From Candidatus Zixiibacteriota bacterium (lineage in GTDB: Bacteria; Zixibacteria; MSB-5A5; GN15; FEB-12), in contig JAGGTI010000130.1 of NCBI GenBank assembly GCA_021163775.1, forward strand, positions 1 through 37,808: a stretch of 37,808 bases of DNA, written 5' to 3'. Positions 23,670 to 37,808 of this stretch are shown here, one piece after another (positions within the stretch are counted from its first letter, which is position 1; every line of letters begins with the position of its first letter). The position numbers and the translations under genes were made by a program. The notes under the pieces are model-generated. The model made no database searches, was not told where the DNA came from, and was given only the letters and a program-made list of their open reading frames with translations.

Positions 23670-25193
23670 CTATTTCAGCAGCACCGCTTTGACGGTCGCG
23701 GTTTGGTTTTCAACTGTTGCCCGGAAAAGATAGACACCCGACGCAAACTTAACCGCATCCCAGGTCAAGTCAAATTCACCGGCCGATGTGGTGGCGTTAT
23801 ATATAGTTGCTACCTGTTGCCCGAGTGGATTGAAGACTTCGACCTTCAGATGACCTTTCTCATTCAGTGCAACTGGTAGCGTCACAGTCGGGTTGAACGG
23901 GTTCGGGTACGGTTGCCCGAGCGTGAATGTAGCGGGTAGCAACTTATTGTCAGAGTCTACTTCAACATCAGTCACTACGGCGAAGCCGTGATACGACACG
24001 GTATCGTGATTGACTATGACGAGATACGGTTCGTCCTCACCATAAGGGTAGTCCCAGAACTTCATGCCTTCCGGGAGTGGATCGTACCTGCGAAGTAGCG
24101 AACCATCGGTAGCACTAAAACGCATGAGAGTATCCCCCGCCATAGAAAAGAACTGATCTGGGAACGTTGGATGGGTGATGAAGTTGGTGAACGAATGGTC
24201 GACCGTCGAATGGCTCCACAACTCCGTCACAGAATCATTTGGATGGAGGTGATAGGCTACTATGCCCCGATCGCTAGGAAGTGCCGGCGGCTCAATCACA
24301 CAACCTGAAACGCTGTAGGAGTAGGAGCATATTAGAGTCAGAGGCGGAGAGCTGTCAATTAGTGACCCAAGGACGAGTTGCGACTCGCTCCAAGTTCCAC
24401 CTTCGTCGTAGCAATAAGGGGCATGCGCCCCAGCGAGGAAGGTAAGTGTGCCGGAAGTGTCCAACCCTACGATACCTTGACTCGTGCGTGAGTAGTCGGG
24501 GCCAATGTTGGACCAAACTTCTGTCAATTTGTGTGTTAGGCACGAAGGGTACCCGGTTCGCTCAGGAAGAAGCCAAATGCCATCGGTATGAATATCCAGA
24601 TGCTTCAACGTTGAGTTCGGATACGAATGGAAGATTTCAGTACTGCCGGTGGTCTCACACCACATGTATGGGATACGATAATACGAGGTCTCGGAAGACA
24701 GAAATAGTTCATCGTACCCATCGTGGTCAATATCAACTGCCTCTAACATGACCAGATTATTCCCGGTACAACTTTCCATGCTAGATAGGTAAAACACCTG
24801 ATCCTGCAGACGCCGATGTACAAGAGTGCTATCATAGCAGACGACCTTAGTGTCTGATTTGTACCCCCTATGGAAGTAACCAATCAATACGTCGGCTACC
24901 GAGTCACGGTTGACATCGGCGAGTTCGATTTCGTATTCGGGATAGTCTGAGTCGAGTGTATCGGTGAAGAGAATATCGTTGGGTAGCGAGAACAACACGA
25001 CGGTATGGCCGTCACACGCCAGCACTTCAGCGAAATTGTCGCCGTCGATATCGGCAAGTTCGATCTTCTGAATTGCACTATCCAGACCGGGCACGGTGAA
25101 CGAGAGATACGGTGATAACTCCGGCTCAGCCTGACAGGTGGCGGCCAGAAGAACAAACACCCCTATCGCTACTAGTTTGACAATCTACTTCAT
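23670..25193 (-). CDS. Secreted beta-propeller/FG-GAP-like protein with T9SS-type tail; amber at codon 3
   Basis: The mature part has several FG-GAP/VCBS-like calcium repeats: KIELADIDGDNFAEVLACDG, ELADVNRDSVADVLIGY and AVDIDHDGYDELFLSS, suggesting a propeller. The C-terminal sorting tail contains QPYPNPFNPTVTLPV, GQQVATIY and SGVYLFRATVENQTA. The best start is ATG at 25193: AAGGTGAT precedes it and MK-IVKLVAIGVFVLLAATCQA would be a perfect signal peptide, but codon 3 is TAG. The ORF track therefore begins at GTG 25160 in the middle of the signal peptide. Either this is a fresh nonsense mutation, a sequencing error, or translation uses a weak GTG with a shortened signal. Other genes here end in TAG, so reassignment is not expected. 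Confidence 0.8.
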
Positions 25194-25344: not shown

Positions 25345-25806
25345 CTAATACCTAAACCGCAGTTTTGGGCCGGAGTGGGCGAAACCTTCGCGAAGATAAA
25401 ACGCGACCGCTCGTTCCCACTTCTCCCCCAACGGCGCGTTCACTTCGATTCGTCGCCAGCCACACTGGCGGCCGTACTCTTTGGCGGTCTCGATCAAAAC
25501 CTTGCCGATTTTTTTGTCGCGGTGTTCCGGAAGGATATATAGTTCGTTGATCACACCGTATGAGCCATCAGCGTAAATCGCGAACGATTCGACCAGCGTA
25601 ATAATGCCGAGCGTCGTCTTTTCGTCTTCGTCGAGCGCCACGAACGCCGTGAACCGATCCTGGTTAGCTTCCCAACCCTGTTTGATCTTCTCCACATTAA
25701 GAGCTACCGGTATATTTGCATCTTCGCGGAGTTCTTCAAGCAGGCGCGTTACCAGGTCAAGCACCAGGTCGGCCTGCTCAATATCAAGTTGTTCAACCGT
25801 TATCAT
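25345..25806 (-). CDS. GNAT-family N-acetyltransferase
   Basis: This 153-aa protein has the GNAT core: ELYILPEHRDKKIGKVLIETAKEYGRQCGW is the acetyl-CoA binding motif A with the R-x-x-(G/K)-x-G/A loop in altered form (RDKKIG). The C-terminal AVAFYLREGF is the usual late motif. The acceptor substrate is unknown. Its start overlaps the upstream alpha/beta-hydrolase-like gene by 4 nt (ATGA), so both are translated together. Confidence 0.87.
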   Translation of the reverse strand: MITVEQLDIEQADLVLDLVTRLLEELREDANIPVALNVEKIKQGWEANQDRFTAFVALDEDEKTTLGIITLVESFAIYADGSYGVINELYILPEHRDKKIGKVLIETAKEYGRQCGWRRIEVNAPLGEKWERAVAFYLREGFAHSGPKLRFRY

Positions 25807-26771
25807 AAGGTGGCGGTATCGTCAGTGATCGCTTCCGGTTCAATGTTGAGTGTGCCAATGAACATCATGATCTGGTTATTGATCGCGGTCGGATCCTGTT
25901 CAGATTTTGCGGTTTCAATCAGACCCGCACCGGATAGTTCGGCAAGAGCGGCGAACTCTTCGGTTTCGCGGATATCTTCTTTGGCCAGTATCAACGTGTG
26001 GCACTCGACCCCTTCAAGATTCTCCAGGGTGATATACTCAGGCGCGTAACCAGAGCGGAGTTCGTACCAGAACTTGAGAAGCGTATGTGGAAATGGAATC
26101 CAGTACATATCGTGCTCCGCCATCAGCATATCAAGCCAGCGATCCGACGTGATATATGGTTCGATCGCCACCACTTTGTCGAGTCGGGGTTCATCGGTTG
26201 CAACAAATATCGCGGCATCGGCGCCGAGTGCCTGACCGACCACCACAAACGGGTGATGAATCTGGTCGCGCATATTAAGATAGCTGATCAACTCGCCCAA
26301 GTCGGCCGCTTCGTATTCGCCGTTGCTATGGTAAGTTCCGGTCGAAAGGCCACTGGCGCGCTGATCGTAGAGACAGACCGTAAAACCGGAGTCGAGCAGA
26401 GCCTGAGCAAGTGGGATCATCGAAGTCCGATCAAATCGCTCATCGTGGACCAGAATCGCGGTACCATTAATAGTCACCAGCTGGTCGGGATTGGTCGAAT
26501 CGGGGGCCGGGGTCAGGTAAAGACAGGCCAGGTTGGTGAGGCCATCAGAGTCGATCCGGAAAGTATCGACCACGGCCCCGAGTTCCAGAAACGCGGTCGG
26601 GTCGTTGGCAGGCAACGAATCGGCGTTGAATTCTTCGATATCCGGGCGGGCAAGGATAGCCTTGGCACGGTTGAGCGGGTAGATGATAAACACTAAAGCT
26701 AAGATCCCGACTACCAGCAGGAAGACTACGATTTGGAGAATTTCTTTGACTGTTTGCGACATTTTGGCCAT
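25803..26771 (-). CDS. Membrane-anchored alpha/beta-hydrolase fold protein without catalytic Ser
   Basis: 322 aa with one N-terminal TM helix (about 12-31) and an alpha/beta-hydrolase body behind it. Conserved fold features are TAILVHDERFDRTSMIPLAQALLDSGFTVCLYDQRASGLS and a strand-helix around VVVGQALGADAA. The nucleophile elbow GxSxG reads GQALG, so Ser is replaced by Ala181, and I see no His near the C terminus to act as base. It is probably not a hydrolase, but a binding or structural protein. The ATG at 26771 follows GGAGTTAG on the minus strand. It is co-translated with the GNAT gene. Confidence 0.75.
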   Translation of the reverse strand: MAKMSQTVKEILQIVVFLLVVGILALVFIIYPLNRAKAILARPDIEEFNADSLPANDPTAFLELGAVVDTFRIDSDGLTNLACLYLTPAPDSTNPDQLVTINGTAILVHDERFDRTSMIPLAQALLDSGFTVCLYDQRASGLSTGTYHSNGEYEAADLGELISYLNMRDQIHHPFVVVGQALGADAAIFVATDEPRLDKVVAIEPYITSDRWLDMLMAEHDMYWIPFPHTLLKFWYELRSGYAPEYITLENLEGVECHTLILAKEDIRETEEFAALAELSGAGLIETAKSEQDPTAINNQIMMFIGTLNIEPEAITDDTATL

Positions 26772-27640: not shown

Positions 27641-28810
27641 ATGCGGTTCAGCTCCAATGAGATGAGCACCAGTCCGAAGACATCCTTATTATTGCTTGTT
27701 TTGATCTTGCTTCTTTGTTCTGCTCCGGGATTGCAAGCGGACGATGAGATGTTTGATCGCCTCAGGGTCACTGTGGGCGATACTACTGGAACAGCAGGAG
27801 AGGAAAATTCGGCAGTATCAGTTTTTCTTACCAACCCTTCGGATGACATCTTTGCCTTCACGATTCATATTGCGCTCGACCGCAATGACATCGCCAATTT
27901 CCAGACACAACTCGACACGATTGAGGTGTTTACGTACTGGGCTTGCAACAACTGGGTCGGCGAAGTCTGCACTGACTCGGTCGGCGTGGATGATCCCTTG
28001 ACCGAGCCGTGGGACTTTGAGCATATTGATACGGTTGAAGCGTATGCCGGCGTTTTTGATACTGTTGGAACTTTGATCTCTGGATGGGACTATGTCCAGT
28101 CGCGGGCGGTTTCAACTGGTGATCTCGGGTTGGATATTCTGTTGACAGCTATCTCCGACACCGACTCTATCCCCGGCTACGTGCCGCCGCTCTCACCTCA
28201 GGGTGGAGGGGTGTTGTTTAGAGTACTGGCTGATATTTTTCCAATTCCGCCCGAGCAGGAAGACCGCACCGCCACCGTTCGGATCGATGTGGGTTTCAAG
28301 CGCTGGTTTGGTTTCTCTACTCCGGAGGGTGAGTCGATTGGGTGGATAACCGTGCAGGTTCCTGACACCAACTATTATATGTGTACCAGTCCAGAACCTC
28401 CGCCGGGTACCGGTTGTTATGAATGGACCAAAGTATATTCGTGGGAGTGCCCTGCGGAAGGGTGTGACTCCGTAGGTATCCAGATGGTTGATATTCCGGT
28501 GCTGGATTCAACCCAGGTCAGCCTGTTTGACGGGTCTATCACGGTGTTAAACACCTGCTGTATTGGCAGGGTGGGTGATACCAACAACTCCGGCGAGGAT
28601 GAGCCGACGATTGGTGATGTCAGCACAATTATTGACGTGCTTTTTATTAACAATAACTGGGACATAATTGACTGCCTGGCGGAAACCGATATTAACCAGT
28701 CGGGTGGGGTCAGCCCTACTCCGAATGACATAACGATTGGTGATGTGTCGATTCTAATAGATTACTTGTTTATTACGGGATCATCTTTGGGACTGCCTGA
28801 TTGTCTATAG
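27641..28810 (+). CDS. Secreted protein with cohesin-like body and C-terminal dockerin-like module
   Basis: 389 aa with a signal peptide (TSLLLLVLILLLCSAPGLQA). A beta-rich region begins DRLRVTVGDTTGTAGEENSAVSVFLTNPSDDIFAFTIHIALD, cohesin-like in style. The C terminus is a duplicated dockerin-like module, GDTNNSGEDEPTIGDVSTIIDVLF and TDINQSGG...DITIGDVSILIDYLF, with Asp/Asn positions that would bind Ca2+. It ends there: the NYPNPFNP sorting tail of its neighbours is missing. Nine or more Cys residues suggest disulfides outside the cytoplasm. Perfect AGGAGG precedes the ATG. A role as a docking partner of the longer proteins is inferred only. Confidence 0.72.
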   Translation: MRFSSNEMSTSPKTSLLLLVLILLLCSAPGLQADDEMFDRLRVTVGDTTGTAGEENSAVSVFLTNPSDDIFAFTIHIALDRNDIANFQTQLDTIEVFTYWACNNWVGEVCTDSVGVDDPLTEPWDFEHIDTVEAYAGVFDTVGTLISGWDYVQSRAVSTGDLGLDILLTAISDTDSIPGYVPPLSPQGGGVLFRVLADIFPIPPEQEDRTATVRIDVGFKRWFGFSTPEGESIGWITVQVPDTNYYMCTSPEPPPGTGCYEWTKVYSWECPAEGCDSVGIQMVDIPVLDSTQVSLFDGSITVLNTCCIGRVGDTNNSGEDEPTIGDVSTIIDVLFINNNWDIIDCLAETDINQSGGVSPTPNDITIGDVSILIDYLFITGSSLGLPDCL

Positions 28811-28820
28811 CGAGGCAGTC
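28791..28820 (+). terminator. Hairpin across the stop codon, possible weak terminator
   Basis: GACTGCCT/AGGCAGTC, 8 perfect pairs, spans the stop of the 389-aa gene. No U tract follows, so at most it stabilises the 3' end or acts with a factor. Confidence 0.35.
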
Positions 28821-29200
28821 GGATGATTCTAACCTTGATTTGGGTACCAACCTGTTGCGAGAATTAAACAGTTCTGTGAAAAATCTTAATACTGCGCTAA
28901 TAGCGCCACGATACATTTGGATAGAAAAAAGAAGCGCCCGGCCTTTGGGCAGGCTTGGCAATGACTATAGAAGAAAAGAAAGACGGAAGTAAAGGAGGAC
29001 ATCTAAAAGAGGATATTGCACGCGCTCTAATTTTAGAGTTTAACTGTCGTTCTTTTTTGGCGACCATTGGATAGCGAAATTGTCTGGCTCTACGATTTCG
29101 ATGATCCGGGTGGCTAACCCTGAGGGGGGCTAGAGAGAAGATAGTTAAGTATTTGACAACTTATTGTTGTAATGAATGTGTTTTTTTAGGAGAGCAAATA
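28821..29200 (+). promoter_or_regulatory. Long structured 5' leader of the 882-aa surface protein
   Basis: A gene-free gap of 380 bp. It holds a hairpin AAGCGCCC...GGGC-GCTT (28932-28956), CTCTAA-TT-TTAGAG (29025-29038), and a stem CTCTA...TAGAG (29088-29135) enclosing GTGGCT and CTGAGGGGGG, which the preceding leader also has. It ends TTTTTTTAGGAGAG 6-8 nt before the ATG. No convincing promoter is seen, so it may be transcribed from 27253 or from a non-sigma70 promoter. Confidence 0.45.
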
Positions 29201-31846
29201 ATGAGGAAACTATTATTTTTCCTTGCGTTCGCCTTGTTGATGACAGGTAGCGCGTTCTCTCAGAACGGTGTCATCTCTGTTGACAATGTTACGAACGATT
29301 ATAACCTCGGAACTCAGTTGCGAGCAGGTTTTCCGCACGTGATTGGTGTCAGATATGATTTGACTGGTGCCATGCCTGCGTCTTCTGCCAACTGGACCGG
29401 TTCCAACGGGTACGAACTGTACTCGCCGGACGGTGCCGACTGGGGTTCCATGACCGCGACTTTTGGTCCTCTGGTCAACGCTCTGCCGGGCTCAGTGGTT
29501 AAGTATGCTTACCACTACCAGCTCGTTGGTACGACTTGGGACCGCACCACGAACAATGGTGACGATCCGTGTCCGGGCGCCAGTGTTATTGACCGGGCCG
29601 GTTTCTACCTGGCTACTGTCGACTTCACCGGTGCTGGCTACCTGCCTGGCGCCAGCGATATTGCGCTGAACTTCGCGTTTAGCACTCGCTTTGAAGATGA
29701 CGGCCTCACCATGTGTTTTGACTCACTCAGCGCCATCACGGCGTGGGAGTGGGCCGCTGGTTCGGCGGGCGATTTCCCGATTTGGGATAATGGCCTTGGT
29801 GCTTCCGAGCCCCGTTGCTGGGAAATCTACAATGTTCCGAACCAGCCGCCGGTCTGGGATGATGACCCGGCTGAGGACGCTGTGAATTTCAATCACTGCG
29901 CCCAGGGTTCCTACCAGCTTTCCGCGACCGACCCCGATCTTACGGGTACGGTTACGTACAGCTTTGACCCCGTCTTTGATGACGGCCTCCACGGCGAAGT
30001 GACACCGGAAGGTGCCTGGACCTGGTCCGGCGCGACGGTGCCACAGAGTGGTGCGGTCGATATTGAATTCCGGGCGTTTGATACCCAGGATTATACATTA
30101 ACCAACTTCACCCTGCACGTTACCTTAACCAACGAAGCTCCGCAATTTGACGTTTGCCCGAGTGGTTTGGCGACTGTCAGTGCTGGAACCCCGCGTTCCC
30201 AGACCCTGGTCTTCTCAGATCCGGACGTCTGTGATGCCCCAGCTATCGTATTGGGTGCCGTGACCAATTTCAACCCTGCCAATGTCAATATTGTTGGTGG
30301 TGTTGTAACCTTCACCCCTGATGTTCCCGCGCGTGACGTGGCTATGGAGATTATTGTCTCCGATGGTGAGCTGGAAGATGTATGCGTGCTGAACTGGCAC
30401 GTAATCGAAGGTTCTAAGTATCAGGTTGAAATCGATAAGGTTGAAGGCGCGTTGCAGGGTCATTTCACTGACCTCGACATCATCCTTCACTCGGCTGACG
30501 CTGAGGACGGTCTTGGTGGTTTTGACCTGTTGGTAGCGTACGACGCTTCCGCGTTGGGCTTCCAGCTCGCTATAGAGGGTGACCTCTATAACGACGGTTT
30601 CTATAACTGGGAATACTTCACCTATCGTTTCGGTCCTTACGGCAACTGTGGTAGTGCCTGCCCGAGCGGCATGCTTCGTGTTGTCGGCCTGGCCGAGATC
30701 AACAATGGTGTCGCGAATGCTGAATGTGTTTATGACGCCACTGCCAAGCCGGTTCTGGCTTCCCTGCGCTTCCTGGTCACCAATGACCGGAGCTTGGAAT
30801 GTCAGTATGTGCCGGTTCGTTTCTTCTGGTACGACTGCACCGACAATATTCTGTCGAGCTGTGACGGTTCGGTGGCTTACCTGTCGAAGAAGGTCTACGA
30901 CTATGTAGACTTCAACTTCCCGTTCCAGGATGGCGAAATGTCTAATGGCACCGTTGGGTTCCCGACTTACCAGGGTGCCCAGGATACGTGTGTGTTTATT
31001 GATGAAGTAAATGGCAAATATGCCATACGCGACATTGACTTCCAGAATGGTGGAATCGACATCGTCTGTGCTGACTCGATTGATGCTCGTGGCGATATCA
31101 ACTTGAACGGTCTGCCTTATGAAATCGCAGATGCCGTCATGTTCACCAACTACTTCATCAATGGCCTGAACGCCTTTACTGGCAACATGGAAGGTTCCAT
31201 TGCGGCTTCCGATTGTAACGCTGACGGTATCGCGCTGTCCGTGGCTGACCTGGTTTATCTTATCAGGGTAGTCATCGGCGATGCCGCGCCTTACGATAAG
31301 GCCGCCCCAGTTGCCGCTAACATCACTTTTGGTAACGAACGTTTCAACGTTGACGTTGAGATGGGCGCCGCCCATATCGTGATGGAAGGCAACGTTGTGC
31401 CGACTCTGTTGGCCGATAACATGGAAATGCTCTATGCCAGCAACGGTCAGACCACTAGTATTCTGGTCTACTCGACCGAAGCTAACCAGAGCTTCCGCGG
31501 TGACTTCCTCGAAGTCGATGGTAATGTTGTCAGCACCGAATTCGCTACCTTCACGGGTGCGACCGTTGCCGCCAAGGTAATGCCTTCAAGCTTTGAAGTT
31601 GCCCAGAACTACCCGAACCCGTTCAACCCGACAACCACCTTCAAGTTCACTGTTCCTAATGGCGGTGACTGGAAGCTTGGCGTCTACAACATTACCGGCC
31701 AGCTCGTCGAGAGCTTCTCCGGTGTGTCTGAGACCGGTTACGAAACGGTCGTTTGGGACGCTTCTAACCTGTCGTCCGGTATCTATTTCTATAGAGTATC
31801 TGCCGACAACCAGAGCGTGACCAAGAAGGCTGTCCTGCTTAAGTAA
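29201..31846 (+). CDS. Large secreted surface protein, cohesin-like + dockerin-like + T9SS-type tail
   Basis: 882 aa. Signal peptide MRKLLFFLAFALLMTGSAFSQ. N-terminal unknown domain (about 20-210). Ig/cadherin-like repeats from about 211 (QPPVWDDDPAEDAVNFNHCAQG). Cohesin-like domain at about 405-600 (YQVEIDKVEGALQGHFTDLDIIL). Dockerin-like module near 631 (GDINLNGLPYEIADAVMFTNYFI...SDCNADGIALSVADLVYLIRV). Sorting tail from about 800 (QNYPNPFNPTTTFKF...SGIYFYRVSADNQ). The ORF track start at 29153 is too early; ATG 29201 has AGGAGAG and begins the signal peptide. C-ending codons such as AAC, TTC and ACC seem more frequent than in its neighbours, as in strongly expressed genes. It may be a main surface-layer component. 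Confidence 0.78.
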   Translation: MRKLLFFLAFALLMTGSAFSQNGVISVDNVTNDYNLGTQLRAGFPHVIGVRYDLTGAMPASSANWTGSNGYELYSPDGADWGSMTATFGPLVNALPGSVVKYAYHYQLVGTTWDRTTNNGDDPCPGASVIDRAGFYLATVDFTGAGYLPGASDIALNFAFSTRFEDDGLTMCFDSLSAITAWEWAAGSAGDFPIWDNGLGASEPRCWEIYNVPNQPPVWDDDPAEDAVNFNHCAQGSYQLSATDPDLTGTVTYSFDPVFDDGLHGEVTPEGAWTWSGATVPQSGAVDIEFRAFDTQDYTLTNFTLHVTLTNEAPQFDVCPSGLATVSAGTPRSQTLVFSDPDVCDAPAIVLGAVTNFNPANVNIVGGVVTFTPDVPARDVAMEIIVSDGELEDVCVLNWHVIEGSKYQVEIDKVEGALQGHFTDLDIILHSADAEDGLGGFDLLVAYDASALGFQLAIEGDLYNDGFYNWEYFTYRFGPYGNCGSACPSGMLRVVGLAEINNGVANAECVYDATAKPVLASLRFLVTNDRSLECQYVPVRFFWYDCTDNILSSCDGSVAYLSKKVYDYVDFNFPFQDGEMSNGTVGFPTYQGAQDTCVFIDEVNGKYAIRDIDFQNGGIDIVCADSIDARGDINLNGLPYEIADAVMFTNYFINGLNAFTGNMEGSIAASDCNADGIALSVADLVYLIRVVIGDAAPYDKAAPVAANITFGNERFNVDVEMGAAHIVMEGNVVPTLLADNMEMLYASNGQTTSILVYSTEANQSFRGDFLEVDGNVVSTEFATFTGATVAAKVMPSSFEVAQNYPNPFNPTTTFKFTVPNGGDWKLGVYNITGQLVESFSGVSETGYETVVWDASNLSSGIYFYRVSADNQSVTKKAVLLK

Positions 31847-31872
31847 TGTAGGATTTGTCTTTGATTTTGGAT

Positions 31873-31899
31873 CCCCGGATAGGTTAACCCTTTCCGGGG
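31873..31899 (+). terminator. Hairpin after the 882-aa gene
   Basis: CCCCGGA...TCCGGGG, 7 perfect pairs with an interior TAGGTTAACCCTT that also folds partly. It lies 27 bp after the stop and is followed by TTCTAAA rather than a long U tract. Probably the end of this transcript. Confidence 0.5.
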
Positions 31900-32021
31900 G
31901 TTCTAAACCGCAAGACAGGAGAACTTATATTAGCAATTTGTTCACGAAATAAAGTTGGATAGAGTTAGAGAAAAGGTTTAGCTGAAATGGCCTAAGTTGT
32001 TAGTGAAACTATAGTTTTCGC

Positions 32022-32050
32022 GTGACAAACGGGTCTTTTTTATATATAAT
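32022..32050 (+). promoter_or_regulatory. Sigma70-type promoter of the 811-aa surface protein
   Basis: GTGACA, 17-bp spacer, TATAAT. Predicted start near 32057, giving a leader of about 340 nt, similar in length to that of the 389-aa gene. The gap 31900-32395 otherwise holds only the hairpins at 32341-32380. Confidence 0.75.
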
Positions 32051-32340
32051 GTTATGATCTTGTCGAAGTGTACAAACCTTTTGTTTGGATGTTGTCGTAC
32101 TGCGTACATTTGCATATGCCTGCGGAAGAATGACAGACAACCTCACTATGTTACTCGCCGCCCGAAAGAGGAGTATTCTTTAGTCTAACTGATATTTACA
32201 AGTTGGCTTGGCAGTAGAGAACATAAGTTCTTATTACTTCTACTCTTAAACGGATTTGCTAAGAGCCATAGACTCTGAGTAGAACAGGAAGCGATTCGTC
32301 ACGGAAAGGCGAAAGAACTTCCCGGAGTGAACAGGTTCCG

Positions 32341-32380
32341 GTCTGAGAATTGCTCAGACAAGGTATGGCAAAATGCCATA
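32341..32380 (+). promoter_or_regulatory. Tandem perfect hairpins directly upstream of the 811-aa gene
   Basis: GTCTGAG-AATTG-CTCAGAC (32341-32359) and TATGGCA-AAA-TGCCATA (32364-32380) lie in the leader, 16 bp before the ATG at 32396. No Shine-Dalgarno is evident between them and the start. They may control translation or mRNA stability. Confidence 0.55.
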
Positions 32381-32395
32381 TTAAGACGGCAAGTT

Positions 32396-34831
32396 ATGAG
32401 TAAGACGTACTTTACAAGATTTTTCGGCATATTGGCCACGCTTTTGGTGGCTGGCGTCACCGTTGGAACGACGCCGACAGAGGCGAGGTACGCCATATAC
32501 GCAGACTCGGTTGAATCGGGTGCTGGTTCAGACGTGTCGGTCAGATTCTACCTTGCCAATGAGATGGCGTTGACATCGTTAAGTGTACCAATCAGTTACG
32601 ACCCATCGCTGGTGACACTCAAGTCGATCAGTTTTACTGATTCGAGAGCGCAACATATTGCAAATAAGATGATTACGCCGTCAGATATTGATGTAGCTGA
32701 CGGTCATTTCATGGTAGCGATATTCCAATGGATGGAAGATCCTATCGAAGCTGGTGATGGACTGTTGTTTACGGCGATATTTGGCCTTAATCCGGAGGCG
32801 GAAGTTGGCCAGTCCACTCTACTGGATACGCTTTTCTACCCGCCCGCCGGAGTTTTGGAAGTTGTCCGAGCCGATACGTCGGGGGGGATTCAGCCCGATT
32901 TTGGGCCGGGGATGATAATAATTGGTGAAAATAACCGTACCCCGGTGTTTGCTACGCTTCCTGACCAGTATGTTTTGGAGGGCGATAGTCTCGATTTAAC
33001 TATTATAGTGTCAGATCCTGATGAGGATTTGCTGACTTTGGCGATTACGACCAAACCGACCGGGGCAACTTTTGTGGATAACGGTGATGGAACGGCTCGG
33101 TTCGTTTGGGTGCCGGATTATGTTGGCCCGAATTCGGCCGATGGTTCCCCGCTGAGTTTGAGTTTCTGGGCGAGTGATGGCGATTTGTCATCTCAGATGG
33201 ACTTGAATATTTACGTGCTCAACCGGAACCGCAAGCCGTCGATAATGGCTCCTACGGAAGCTATTGTTGAGGCTGGCGAAACGATGAGTTTGTCGGTGTC
33301 GGCATTCGATCCCGATTTTGAGACGATCACCTGGAGCTGGTCGGGTCTTCCCGAAGGTGCCACGTTTGATGGTGATAATCCAGGTTTGCTAAGCTGGACA
33401 TCGGAAGTGACTGACACTGGTTCATTCGTTGTGGCATTTGTGGCCACCGATCCACAGGGATTAGCGGACACGCTTGCGATAACCACTCAGGTTCGGGCGG
33501 TTGCATTATTTACGCTGGCGATTGATTCTGTTGAGGCGTTCCCGAATGAGGATGTTGAGTTCAAGATCACGCTTGATAACAAGTTGCCGGTAGCGGGTTT
33601 CAACATTTTGTTCAATCACGACCCGATTGCGCTTGGTTTCCTGTCGTTGACTAATGCCGAGACCCGTACCGAGGCGTTTGAGTATTTCACGGTGCGCACC
33701 ACAGAAAACGGTATAGCCGGCAATGTTCGTATCATTGGAATTGGAGATATGGGTGGTGGTACTCCGGGGTTGGAAGCAGGCGATGGACCAATAGCTTCCG
33801 TGCGGGTGCATACTACTGGTGATCTGGCTTTTGCCGGTATGAGTATTCCGTTGACGTTCCAGTTCCTCGATGCTCCGATCAATGATGACAACAGTTTGAC
33901 CGACAGTATCGGCACCAGAATCGAACAGGCCGATATCGTTTATCAGACTGGCAGTGTGAAGATTCACGATATAGGCCAGATCCGGATTGGTGACATAAAT
34001 CTTAACGGCATTGCGGCTGAGATTGGCGATGTGATTTACTTTACAAATTTCTTTATCAACCCGTCGCTATATAAGTTCAATGCACTACAGTACGCCAACT
34101 CTGATGTCAACCGGGATTACATCGCCGCTACGGTGAGTGACCTGGTGGCGCTTATCAACTGGGTGGTGGGTGGTAACACCTACAGCAAGATTTCTGATGG
34201 TGGAGAGTTGACCGCATCGGTTGAGATTGAGACTTATTCCAATCAGGCCCTGTTCAGCTATGAATCTTCGGTGGCCGTTGGGGCGGCTTACTTTGTGATC
34301 AAGAGCGATCGGGAGGTCACCGAGGGGATGATCACCAGTCGATGTGACAATATGGCTATGAATTATCATCAGGATGGTGACCGAGTGAAGGTGCTGTTGT
34401 ATAGCCTTGACGGCGAAGTGATGCCGTCCGGTCGAACCGAATTATTTGAGATAAGTGGTGGCGTTGATTTTGAGATCAGCCATGTTGAATTAGGTAGCTC
34501 GGGTGGTCAGCAGATAGAAGTAGCGTTGGCTTCAGCTGGTGCTCCTCTGCCGATCGGTTTTGCGCTGATGCAGAACTACCCTAACCCATTCAATCCTGAG
34601 ACGAACCTTGAATTCGCTCTGCCATATGCCACGCATGTTACTCTGACGGTTTACAATGTGTTGGGCCAGGCGGTGGTGACTTTGGTGAACGATGAGCTTC
34701 CGGCCGGAACCCACGGCATCCAGTGGCGTGGTACTGACCAGCAGGGTCAGGCGGTGGCGTCAGGAGTTTACTTGTACCGTCTACAGGCGGGCACCGAAAC
34801 TATGACACGAAAGATGATGCTCTTGAAGTAG
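32396..34831 (+). CDS. Secreted surface protein, two cohesin-like and two Ig-like domains, dockerin-like module, T9SS-type tail
   Basis: 811 aa from ATG 32396 (MSKTYFTRFFGILATLLVAGVTVG...); the upstream extension in the track is not credible. Cohesin-like domain 1 at about 32-180 (YAIYADSVESGAGSDVSVRFYLAN). Cadherin/Ig-like domains at about 181-280 (LPDQYVLEGDSLDLTIIVSD) and 280-372. Cohesin-like domain 2 at about 372-525 (LAIDSVEAFPNEDVEFKITL). Dockerin-like module at about 530-600 (GDINLNGIAAEIGDVIYFTNFFI, SDVNRDYIAATVSDLVALINW). Sorting tail from about 725 (QNYPNPFNPETNLEF, GVYLYRLQAGTE). It is probably translocated across the outer membrane by a type IX-like system and tethered. The function of the repeats is unknown. 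Confidence 0.78.
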   Translation: MSKTYFTRFFGILATLLVAGVTVGTTPTEARYAIYADSVESGAGSDVSVRFYLANEMALTSLSVPISYDPSLVTLKSISFTDSRAQHIANKMITPSDIDVADGHFMVAIFQWMEDPIEAGDGLLFTAIFGLNPEAEVGQSTLLDTLFYPPAGVLEVVRADTSGGIQPDFGPGMIIIGENNRTPVFATLPDQYVLEGDSLDLTIIVSDPDEDLLTLAITTKPTGATFVDNGDGTARFVWVPDYVGPNSADGSPLSLSFWASDGDLSSQMDLNIYVLNRNRKPSIMAPTEAIVEAGETMSLSVSAFDPDFETITWSWSGLPEGATFDGDNPGLLSWTSEVTDTGSFVVAFVATDPQGLADTLAITTQVRAVALFTLAIDSVEAFPNEDVEFKITLDNKLPVAGFNILFNHDPIALGFLSLTNAETRTEAFEYFTVRTTENGIAGNVRIIGIGDMGGGTPGLEAGDGPIASVRVHTTGDLAFAGMSIPLTFQFLDAPINDDNSLTDSIGTRIEQADIVYQTGSVKIHDIGQIRIGDINLNGIAAEIGDVIYFTNFFINPSLYKFNALQYANSDVNRDYIAATVSDLVALINWVVGGNTYSKISDGGELTASVEIETYSNQALFSYESSVAVGAAYFVIKSDREVTEGMITSRCDNMAMNYHQDGDRVKVLLYSLDGEVMPSGRTELFEISGGVDFEISHVELGSSGGQQIEVALASAGAPLPIGFALMQNYPNPFNPETNLEFALPYATHVTLTVYNVLGQAVVTLVNDELPAGTHGIQWRGTDQQGQAVASGVYLYRLQAGTETMTRKMMLLK

Positions 34832-34880
34832 AGCATTGATATACATTGATAATGATGTTGATTACCATATTGAGGTCGCG

Positions 34881-37568
34881 ATGAGAATCGTAAGAATATC
34901 CTTACTGAGTTTTTTGCTGGTTGTAGCCCTTGCAGGCGGTTCACAGGTTCAGGCGCAAATTGGTTGTGATGATCTAACCAAATCCGCGTTTGATATCCTG
35001 CGTATACCGTTCTTCTGCGGCATACCGGGCGATACGGTGTTGTTGCCGGTCATTCTGGAGCACGATTCGATTGTAACATCGTTTCAGTTTTTGATTGAGT
35101 TCGATACCGCCTGGTTGCGACCGGTGTACGTCCGTGACTCATCCTGTGCGATTGCCGACTCGACCGGTTGTATCTCGTGGAATATTGATACGACCTATGT
35201 CGATCACCTGATCACGGGTCGGATGCTCAAGACCGACACGACCAGTGGCGAGTTTGGGCCGATAATCGATACGATTAACCAGTTCACGGTCAACATGTTC
35301 CAGGGTCATCTCGATATTCTGGCGTGCAACGCGGTGCCAGAGTTTCTGACGCTTGATTCTTTACCGCCGGGCGACGATACGATTTTCTATGTGAAAATGA
35401 TTGTCAACCCGGCTATGCCTCATTTGCAGTTGACGGCGTTAAGTTTTCACGAGAGTGACATCTTCACTGTCGTCGATACGGTTTTCCCTCCCGACACGAC
35501 TTGGTATAATGGTTGCAACAACTCGCAGATGGTTACGGCCTGGCGAGTTGGCCCGGATTCTACGGCTGGCTATCAGATTTACCCAACGACCGACTTGGGT
35601 TATACTTTCTGGTTCCAGGCGGACACCGCCTGTGTGCCAAATCCGGATCCCCCAACCGTAGCCCTTACGGCAAATCCAACCTCATTTGTACAGGGTGGCC
35701 AGACGACATTGAGCTGGATTTCGACCTACGCTGATTCGGTAGTGGTTCGGGATCAAGGCGGCACGCGATTGTCGGGGTCCGCCAACGGAAATACATCAGG
35801 TAGTCTGCCGTGGTCATCATCAACGCTCGGAACTTACACCTTCACGGCCACAGCCTATGGAGACGGTACGGCGTCAGATGGCGCCAGTGTAACGGTGACG
35901 GCCGGGTCCGCAAACTGTCCTTCAATTACTGTGGTTGGCAATACCGGAATCTACGATCAGGGGGAGTTGATCAGTTTCACGGTCACCGCGACCAACATCA
36001 GTGGTACACAGATATCAATCAATGCTACTTCATTGCCGTCCAACGCGTCATTTGGTACCGGCGGTTCGGTGGTCGGGGTCAGCCCGGTCAGCGGAACGTT
36101 CAGTTGGACACCGGACTTCAATCAGAAAGGTTCGTTCAGCATTAGATTTACTGCGACCGACTCGGAGTGTTCGATAGACAGGTATGAAGCGATCACGGTC
36201 AACGAGCTTCAGTTTGACCGCTTGTTCTCGACATCGCGCGAAGGTAATCGGCCAGTCGGCGGTCTGCCGGGCCGAGAGGGCATTTTCTTCCCGATCGATC
36301 TGGTAACATCACAGACTGTCTATGGTGTTCAGTTCGATATGTTCTATCCCAACAGCGTAATTAGGATTGATTCGTTTGTTACTACGGCGCGCATCCCTGA
36401 ATATGTAGTTTACGATAACATTGGCGTGACACCGGGCGAAATTCGTGTGGTCACTTTCGGTCTCAACAACGAGCCAGTCAACGACACCAACACGACCGCG
36501 ATATTGCAAGCGGTGATCACTCTGGACTCCAGTGCTGTGCCGTGGACAGACTACACGATTCACCTTGAGAATGGACGCGAGTCAATCAGCCCCGATCCGG
36601 GGGTTGGTTCTTTGCCATTGGTTACGGATTCCGGTCTGATAGCGGTGGATTCGCTTGGTGATGTCAACCTTGACCGCCACATTGATGTGGCCGACGCGGT
36701 TAATATAGTAGCTTATATTATCAATACTTACACGCTGTCGCCGCGTCAGTTTGAGGTGGCCGATATAATCACCAACGATTCGGTCAACGTGTTTGACCTG
36801 GTCGCTGATGTCAATATGATCTATGGTGTGCCGTTGCCGTCACCGGCGGCTCCGGTTCCGGGTGAGAACGCGGTTCTGGCTCTTGACTATGGCGATGTTC
36901 CCAGCGGTTCATCATCGGTGCTGACTGTCCGGTCGGAGATACCGCGGGAAGTGGCTGGGTTTCAGTTGCAGTTGAACTATGATCCGACATCGGTGAGTTT
37001 TGGTACGCCCAGCCTGACACAGGACAATGCACACTATGCTCTCCACGCCAATGACGATGGCCAGGGACGTTTGAAGATATTGATTTATAATTTTGCAAGT
37101 TACGATGTGGGGGAGTTTATGCAACCGGGTGTAGTTGATCTGGTAGAAATACCGATTACCGCCTATGCCAGTCTGGAAGCGGATGACAAAACCAAGATCC
37201 GATTGACCGAGGCATTGCTGTCGACTGCGATGGCTGGTTCGATTGCTGTGCAAGGTGTTGATGCCCCGCTACCGACCTCGTTTACGCTCAGTCAGAACTA
37301 TCCCAATCCATTCAACCCGAGCACGATTATTGAGTTCTCTGTGGGTGCGGCCGAGAACGGCGCCTCTCAGCATGTACGGCTGGATGTGTTTAACATCCTG
37401 GGTCAGGAAGTGACGACGCTGATGGATGGGAGTTATTCGGCCGGTGATTATCAGGTAGTATGGGATGCTACCGACAAGTCGGGACGCCGAGTGGCGACCG
37501 GAATTTACCTCTATCGCTTGAAGGTAGGGGATGAACGCAAGACCAAGAAGATGTTATTCCTTAAGTAG
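34881..37568 (+). CDS. Secreted surface protein, Ig-like, cohesin-like, dockerin-like domains and T9SS-type tail
   Basis: 895 aa. Signal peptide MRIVRISLLSFLLVVALAGGSQVQA. N-terminal cohesin-like domain (about 25-250). Ig-like domains at about 255-345 (PPTVALTANPTSFVQGGQTTLSW) and 347-440. Cohesin-like domain at about 443-590 (DRLFSTSREGN). Dockerin-like module at about 592-665 (GDVNLDRHIDVADAVNIVAYII, ITNDSVNVFDLVADVNMI). A further cohesin-like domain at about 670-790 (LALDYGDVPSGSSSVLTV). Sorting tail from about 800 (QNYPNPFNPSTIIEF, TGIYLYRLKVGDE). The start is ATG 34881; the track's earlier ATG 34836 lacks a signal peptide at its front. It lies 49 bp after the preceding gene with no promoter, so both are one transcript. 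Confidence 0.78.
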   Translation: MRIVRISLLSFLLVVALAGGSQVQAQIGCDDLTKSAFDILRIPFFCGIPGDTVLLPVILEHDSIVTSFQFLIEFDTAWLRPVYVRDSSCAIADSTGCISWNIDTTYVDHLITGRMLKTDTTSGEFGPIIDTINQFTVNMFQGHLDILACNAVPEFLTLDSLPPGDDTIFYVKMIVNPAMPHLQLTALSFHESDIFTVVDTVFPPDTTWYNGCNNSQMVTAWRVGPDSTAGYQIYPTTDLGYTFWFQADTACVPNPDPPTVALTANPTSFVQGGQTTLSWISTYADSVVVRDQGGTRLSGSANGNTSGSLPWSSSTLGTYTFTATAYGDGTASDGASVTVTAGSANCPSITVVGNTGIYDQGELISFTVTATNISGTQISINATSLPSNASFGTGGSVVGVSPVSGTFSWTPDFNQKGSFSIRFTATDSECSIDRYEAITVNELQFDRLFSTSREGNRPVGGLPGREGIFFPIDLVTSQTVYGVQFDMFYPNSVIRIDSFVTTARIPEYVVYDNIGVTPGEIRVVTFGLNNEPVNDTNTTAILQAVITLDSSAVPWTDYTIHLENGRESISPDPGVGSLPLVTDSGLIAVDSLGDVNLDRHIDVADAVNIVAYIINTYTLSPRQFEVADIITNDSVNVFDLVADVNMIYGVPLPSPAAPVPGENAVLALDYGDVPSGSSSVLTVRSEIPREVAGFQLQLNYDPTSVSFGTPSLTQDNAHYALHANDDGQGRLKILIYNFASYDVGEFMQPGVVDLVEIPITAYASLEADDKTKIRLTEALLSTAMAGSIAVQGVDAPLPTSFTLSQNYPNPFNPSTIIEFSVGAAENGASQHVRLDVFNILGQEVTTLMDGSYSAGDYQVVWDATDKSGRRVATGIYLYRLKVGDERKTKKMLFLK

Positions 37569-37587: not shown

Positions 37588-37808
37588 ATGATAAATCGTA
37601 TGAGATCAATAGTCCTTAGCGCCGTGTTGCTCTTGCTTATGGCCGGATCTGGTTTTGGTCAGACGACTCCAGTTGTTACAGATATCGGTGATCAGACTAT
37701 CGCCGAAGGTGCGACATTCACGACGATCAGTCTTGATGATTTTGTTTCGGACCTTGACAACACCGATGCCGAGATGACCTGGACTTACGCTGGCAACACC
37801 GAGTTGAC
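37588..37808 (+). CDS. Secreted Ig-like repeat protein, 5' part only
   Basis: The frame is open to the window end (73 codons seen) and is not in the ORF track. A signal peptide (MINRMRSIVLSAVLLLLMAGSGFGQ) is followed by TIAEGATFTTISLDDFVSDLDN and MTWTYAGNTEL, the start of a well-known bacterial Ig/cadherin-like repeat that usually occurs many times in one large surface protein. ATG 37588 has CCGGAGAA 6-8 nt before it. It lies 19 bp after the preceding gene and is probably co-transcribed. Type of C terminus unknown. Confidence 0.8.
   Translation, partial: MINRMRSIVLSAVLLLLMAGSGFGQTTPVVTDIGDQTIAEGATFTTISLDDFVSDLDNTDAEMTWTYAGNTEL

Follow-up and report, generated by a model that had tools for sequence, protein, structure and literature searches.

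Does a cluster of genes for secreted proteins that combine cohesin-like modules, dockerin-like modules and sorting tails build a self-assembling surface lattice, or does it serve another kind of surface assembly? The question is raised by a contig of Candidatus Zixiibacteriota (GenBank assembly GCA_021163775.1, contig JAGGTI010000130.1); the window analyzed here is this entire contig (C17; 37,808 nucleotides), and the metagenome-derived source genome comprises 2.37 Mb and is 77% complete. Four open reading frames for secreted proteins, P1 to P4, occupy positions 27641 to 37568 on one strand (+). Cohesin–dockerin pairs are known mainly from Gram-positive anaerobes degrading plant fibre, and a first, sequence-only reading had proposed that here both partners, joined in the same chains and followed by type IX secretion system (T9SS) tails, could bind into a sheet or fibre. 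Our analysis instead points to P2, P3 and P4 as T9SS-anchored scaffoldins whose cohesins would load client proteins ending in dockerins, a reading to which we assign a probability of roughly 0.58. On the cell surface, the array proteins would probably retain dozens of proteins that are secreted separately, with many proteases among them.

Profiles were needed to assign the cohesins, because single-sequence searches of the PDB with P1, P3 and P4 gave no cohesin match. Custom profiles built from P3 orthologs laid out P2 as cohesin–dockerin–X–tail, with one cohesin; P3 as cohesin–Ig–Ig–cohesin–dockerin–X–tail; and P4 as cohesin–Ig–cohesin–dockerin–(weak cohesin)–tail, where Ig denotes immunoglobulin-like domains and X a further beta domain. 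The "two or three cohesin-like domains" of the sequence-only reading thus hold for P3 (two) and P4 (two, with a weak third), while P2 has a single one. A cohesin profile made from 48 aligned domains (A2), with the P2 cohesin in its training set, retrieved 30 PDB sequences at E ≤ 1, every one a cohesin, the best being a non-cellulosomal cohesin of Archaeoglobus fulgidus (2xdh; 3.4e-8). PF00963 (cut-off 24.1 bits) was matched by 30/48 of the aligned domains, and in P3 at 27.8 bits. The X domains of P2 and P3, tried as additional cohesins, were rejected as such, having no profile support (5–6%), and the one in P3 had no PDB sequence match; the corresponding domain of P4 was weakly supported as a cohesin.

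An AlphaFold2 (AF2) model of the P3 unit from cohesin 2 to the tail (33509–34828; 440 amino acids [aa], 13 sequences) reached a mean predicted local distance difference test score (pLDDT) of 78 and a predicted template modelling score (pTM) of 0.46. Its cohesin part lay mostly at pLDDT 72–94, with two ten-residue blocks at 59–65, and Foldseek aligned it to crystal cohesins with a template modelling score, TM(target), of 0.84 at 2.3–2.5 Å. P3 cohesin 2 is predicted by this model to have the jelly-roll beta-sandwich fold of cohesins; that the beta domains fold in this way is borne out, as a prediction, for this domain only.

The dockerin modules consist, by alignment, spacing and PDB matches, of a duplicated EF-hand-like Ca2+ loop plus helix. 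A dockerin profile (A3), which includes canonical C-terminal modules and has the P4 internal dockerin in its training set, matched cellulosomal dockerins in the PDB (best 3.1e-8), and comparison of the profile of the internal modules of P2 and P3 (type B) with that of canonical dockerins gave 99.9%, the two alignments sharing members. The internal module of P4 has the canonical 12-residue Ca2+ loops, and those of P2 and P3 do not. Judged by these profiles, the modules of P2 to P4 are cohesins and dockerin-like modules. Within P3, conservation was highest in the dockerin (3.23 bits), followed by the tail (3.01), cohesin (2.58) and X (1.93).

P2, P3 and P4 each end in a T9SS type A sorting domain scoring above the TIGR04183 cut-off (23 bits), and the T9SS translocon SprA exceeded its cut-off in 20/21 genomes, including the source genome, in which 36 T9SS tails were counted, most of them borne by proteins of other types. 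P2 to P4 are therefore described here as putative T9SS cargo, which would be secreted and anchored by this route in the source organism. Cohesin, dockerin and tail in one chain, as first proposed for the array, is accordingly what we found in P2 to P4, but not in P1: the latter has a dockerin, no TIGR04183 match and a beta domain that is possibly a cohesin, and, as the sequence-only reading remarked of this 389-aa protein, would need a partner at the surface.

The dockerins fall into two classes. Among 24 dockerin matches in the source genome, the internal ones are in proteins with cohesin and tail, and nearly all others close a tail-less protein, ending within a few residues of its stop codon. 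At least 17 tail-less proteins of this genome have a symmetric C-terminal dockerin. In a complete relative genome (G039), 83 matches comprised about 64 C-terminal modules without a tail, about 10 internal ones accompanied by cohesin and tail, and a few at other positions. Canonical 12-residue loops were present in 93/114 C-terminal modules, and PF00404 (Dockerin_1; cut-off 22.9 bits) was matched by 61/63 of those scanned in G039. These client-type dockerins are symmetric, with an identity of 0.65 between helix 1 and helix 2 and of 0.47 between proteins. The internal modules carry a one-residue insertion in both loops (13-residue loops) in 56/77 cases and are asymmetric, the corresponding identities being 0.31 and 0.29. 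In cellulosomes, internal symmetry of the dockerin accompanies dual-mode binding; 2vn5, among the structure matches here, is such a case. Because the two classes occupy separate positions, anchoring scaffoldins with clients fit the data better than homopolymerization.

Among the dockerin-ended proteins of the source genome are a C10 peptidase, a papain-like peptidase and two subtilases, as well as proteins with PKD, BACON or GEVED domains. The domain scan of G039 took in 63 of its dockerin proteins, and the 25 commonest of its 70 families include S8 (6), M28 (3), M6 (2), M14, C1 and C10 peptidases along with FG-GAP and beta-helix proteins. No glycoside hydrolase or carbohydrate-binding module (CBM) was detected by domain scans in P1 to P4 or in the dockerin proteins of the source genome, which upholds for P1 to P4 (Pfam) the initial remark that no carbohydrase domain is seen; nor was there one among the 25 commonest G039 families or in scans of single G039 proteins, although a rare glycosidase in G039 is possible. 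The marks of a cellulosome, carbohydrate-active enzymes bearing dockerins and a scaffoldin that binds carbohydrate, were thus not seen among these proteins and families. Two further kinds of dockerin protein were seen. Tail-less chains of the order peptidase–PKD–cohesin-like–dockerin (L211:776-2626, +; L304, L305 and L311 in G039) unite enzyme, socket and plug and could allow chaining, and in L280 and L335 of G039 the dockerin is not C-terminal and no tail was seen.

The P1–P4 array is part of a locus conserved across the order. P1 to P4 were contiguous and on one strand in 15/20 relatives inspected, four more were interrupted by contig ends, and the remaining one (L067) has P3 without adjoining P1 and P2. 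P3-like matches were found in 61/61 relatives searched, mostly as full-length or near full-length orthologs, which among named records belong to Candidatus Zixiibacteriota, and the internal dockerin is present in 122/133 genomes of the phylum. Together, this synteny and phylum-wide conservation place the array beyond chance. Since P3 orthologs of family f4 lack cohesin 1 and a few genomes retain just cohesin 2–dockerin–X–tail, this unit represents the conserved core. A P2-like cohesin–dockerin–X–tail unit also stands at the end of the giant surface proteins L220 (3129 aa, PKD repeats), L221 (2193+ aa) and L083 (3118 aa).

Nor does the array end at 37568, as first read: a fifth gene, P5, begins at 37588 and is truncated by the contig end, and the gene order beyond the window is P1–P2–P3–P4–P5. 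P5 orthologs are about 3200–3350 aa long with tandem Ig repeats, and a dockerin is found either at the end of P5 itself (L162, L163) or at that of the next gene, P6, of about 1580 aa (L161, L165). The source-genome counterpart of P6, with 1534 aa and a dockerin at its terminus, is encoded at the end of another contig, C14; the assembly is interrupted where the Ig-repeat gene P5 begins.

In the mechanism we propose, P2, P3 and P4 would be exported and anchored to the surface by the T9SS through their C-terminal tails, and their cohesins would catch tail-less secreted proteins in trans by the symmetric dockerins at the C-termini of these. Within the locus, P1 and P5/P6, the latter a giant Ig-repeat protein, would be the clients; among those encoded elsewhere would be subtilases, C10 and papain-like peptidases, and numerous repeat proteins that are not enzymes. 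The internal dockerin, which is asymmetric and placed between cohesin and X, would probably join scaffoldins to one another or dock in cis. More tentatively, at somewhat under even odds, we suggest that the system is ancestral to most of the phylum Zixibacteria: a counterpart of the cellulosome, anchored by the T9SS and dominated by peptidases, with two orthogonal dockerin classes, in which C-terminal dockerins would load clients, internal ones with 13-residue loops would join scaffoldins, and a very long Ig-repeat fibre encoded in the core locus would be docked instead of being anchored directly.

Several results weigh against this scaffoldin–client reading. The P3 model is less confident in its dockerin part, with a low overall pTM; the 8-3-6-5 sheet of the cohesin, which canonically binds dockerin, does not differ significantly in conservation from the opposite sheet (p = 0.11); and the type-B dockerins of P2/P3 alone match PDB dockerins weakly (E 0.009). 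Genus g30 and genomes G090 and G106 have 7–42 dockerins but 0–3 A2-type cohesins; clients and these scaffoldins thus do not always occur together. Cohesin and dockerin counts correlate across 28 related genomes (rho = 0.47), but without families f17 and f6 rho falls to 0.14 (p = 0.52). We discarded this correlation as support, as it is driven by those two families lacking both modules (no cohesin, 0–1 dockerin) and has counterexamples in g30, G090 and G106. Owing to these exceptions and to the lost correlation, we infer rather than assert binding, specificity in the choice of partners and a proteolytic role. In g30 (G030, G074, G075, G076) and G106, with 20–42 dockerins and 0–3 recognizable cohesins, one would expect either a cohesin that has diverged or a different partner.

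Among the alternatives, the one that survives best, though we consider it unlikely, is that the internal dockerin packs in cis, against the cohesin or X of its own chain, and merely stiffens the tail-presenting C-terminal region, with no assembly between chains. Internal dockerins always come with a preceding cohesin and a tail, are asymmetric with altered loops and match binding dockerins weakly, all of which would suit such a unit; however, the symmetric C-terminal dockerins on tail-less proteins are left unexplained, and the cohesin–dockerin linker of the P3 model is predicted to be flexible (pLDDT ~48–59, pTM 0.46). Less probable is the head-to-tail scheme of the sequence-only reading, in which the dockerin of one chain would sit on the cohesin of the next to give a fibre or sheet. 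P2 to P4 do each combine cohesin and dockerin, and the tail-less cohesin-like plus dockerin proteins described above could chain, but doubts about the scheme rest on the two separate dockerin classes, the symmetric one being C-terminal on many tail-less secreted proteins, on most dockerins belonging to cohesin-less proteins, and on a cohesin number that varies between chains, with cohesin 1 lost from P3 in f4, which a regular lattice would tolerate poorly. Least probable of all, a C-terminal dockerin acting as a sorting or retention signal read by a non-cohesin partner, with the array encoding unrelated adhesins, would account for conservation extending to the stop codon and for genomes rich in dockerins but nearly devoid of A2-type cohesins, but not for profiles that match cellulosomal dockerins or for the clustering of P1 and P5/P6, which have such ends, with cohesin genes.

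P1, as a candidate client, had no Pfam match, and its beta domain no PDB match. Against the cohesin profile this domain gave an hhalign probability of 49–81%, compared with about 1% or less against other beta domains, and it is possibly a diverged cohesin. Structure prediction, proposed at the outset for each module and confident for P3 cohesin 2, was uninformative for P1 (three sequences, pLDDT 30). P1-type C-termini are paralogous in at least 10 other proteins of the source genome, and P1 orthologs in relatives occupy the same position, lack a tail and have the dockerin-like pair at their end.

Predicted features of the array, with positions in the window
Feature	Position	Strand	Basis or description
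P1, 389 aa	27641..28810	+	signal peptide, beta domain, C-terminal dockerin-like EF-hand pair, no T9SS tail
P1 beta domain, ~264 aa	27761-28552	+	possibly diverged cohesin
P1 C-terminal dockerin-like module	28565..28807	+	enlarged loops, end LGLPDCL; paralogous C-termini and ortholog alignment
P2, 897 aa	29153..31846	+	likely start ATG 29201; N-terminal part with no assigned module, then cohesin, dockerin, X domain and T9SS tail
P2 cohesin	30446..30904	+	A2 E 9.4e-45 (training-set member)
P2 internal dockerin-like module, type B	31082..31285	+	13-residue loops; profile match, alignment, loop spacing
P2 T9SS type A sorting domain	31580..31843	+	TIGR04183 50.0 bits
P3, 834 aa	32327..34831	+	likely start ATG 32396; Pfam, TIGR04183, custom profiles; orthologs in relatives
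P3 cohesin 1	32510..32842	+	PF00963; A2 E 5.4e-29
P3 Ig-like pair (Big_9/He_PIG)	32933..33493	+	Pfam
P3 cohesin 2	33527..33952	+	A2 E 3.8e-50; AF2 and Foldseek against crystal cohesins
P3 internal dockerin-like module, type B	33983..34177	+	profiles, alignment; AF2 helices at unit residues 172-183, 209-219
P3 X domain	34217..34522	+	beta-sandwich of unknown family; AF2 strands
P3 T9SS type A sorting domain	34547..34828	+	TIGR04183 38.4 bits
P4, 910 aa	34836..37568	+	likely start ATG 34881; Pfam, TIGR04183, custom profiles
P4 cohesin 1	35013..35417	+	PF00963 25.8 bits (cut-off 24.1); custom profile 2e-10
P4 cohesin 2	36255..36536	+	custom profile 7e-21
P4 internal dockerin	36648..36830	+	canonical 12-residue loops; Dockerin_1 14.3 bits (below cut-off of 22.9); A3 E 1.9e-20 (training-set member); spacing
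P4 third, weak cohesin-like domain	36894..37175	+	after dockerin; custom profile 5e-6
P4 T9SS type A sorting domain	37269..37565	+	TIGR04183 28.7 bits
P5, 5' end	37588..37808	+	secreted protein, truncated by contig end; orthologs in relatives

To the left of the array lie housekeeping genes (MurJ, YidC, MnmE, MnmG and an HflX-type GTPase). Next to the array, on the opposite strand, lies a gene for a secreted protein with FG-GAP repeats and a T9SS tail (23670-25160, −), and an alpha/beta-hydrolase gene upstream of the array (25803-26771, −) has an ortholog at the same position in L065, L066, L071, L072, L078 and L079.

The sequence-only reading had taken classical cellulosomes to keep cohesins and dockerins on different proteins, which does not hold, as CipA carries nine cohesins and a type II dockerin. 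Like the clostridial cellulosome with its CipA and anchoring scaffoldins, the zixibacterial proteins have cohesin and dockerin folds, symmetric client dockerins and scaffoldins with a dockerin of their own; unlike it, they show no carbohydrase or CBM, would use the T9SS rather than S-layer homology (SLH) domains or sortase for anchoring, and have an asymmetric internal dockerin with a further beta domain after it. ANME archaea have chains that combine a dockerin with as many as five cohesins (PMC9012536), and cohesin plus dockerin in one chain is thus already known. The closest solved cohesin by sequence is likewise archaeal (2xdh of A. fulgidus), but the archaeal systems have no T9SS tails, and their clients are ABC-transporter binding proteins (PMC9012536). 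The Limousia mucinolysome, itself a complex of cellulosome type, shares dockerin-bearing peptidases and scaffoldins with their own dockerins, but is Gram-positive, sortase-anchored and composed mainly of mucin glycosidases (PMC12997984).

The nearest counterpart is a T9SS-anchored cellulosome-like complex predicted for Ca. Stygibacter of the Cloacimonadota (PMC8542988), which tempers the suggestion of an undescribed system. Both have secreted enzymes with C-terminal dockerins, an S8 peptidase included, and a cohesin scaffoldin with a C-terminal T9SS-type domain that would attach it to the surface. However, Ca. Stygibacter has a single scaffoldin of 3755 aa that bears CBMs and cohesins in tandem, as well as GH18 and GH57 (PMC8542988), whereas the Zixibacteria have several short cohesin–dockerin–X–tail proteins in a conserved cluster, no CBM or glycoside hydrolase seen, and peptidase-rich clients. 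In the literature searched, no paper connected Zixibacteria to cohesin and dockerin, to dockerin and peptidase, or to type IX secretion, and we found no description of the conserved locus, the cohesin–dockerin–X–tail unit, the two dockerin classes or the peptidase-rich client set. If the scaffoldin–client reading is true, the plug-and-socket logic of cohesin and dockerin would be a general platform for surface display and protein degradation, joined to the T9SS in an uncultured two-membrane phylum; dozens of dockerin proteins per genome would gain a testable role, and new orthogonal cohesin–dockerin pairs would become available for protein engineering.

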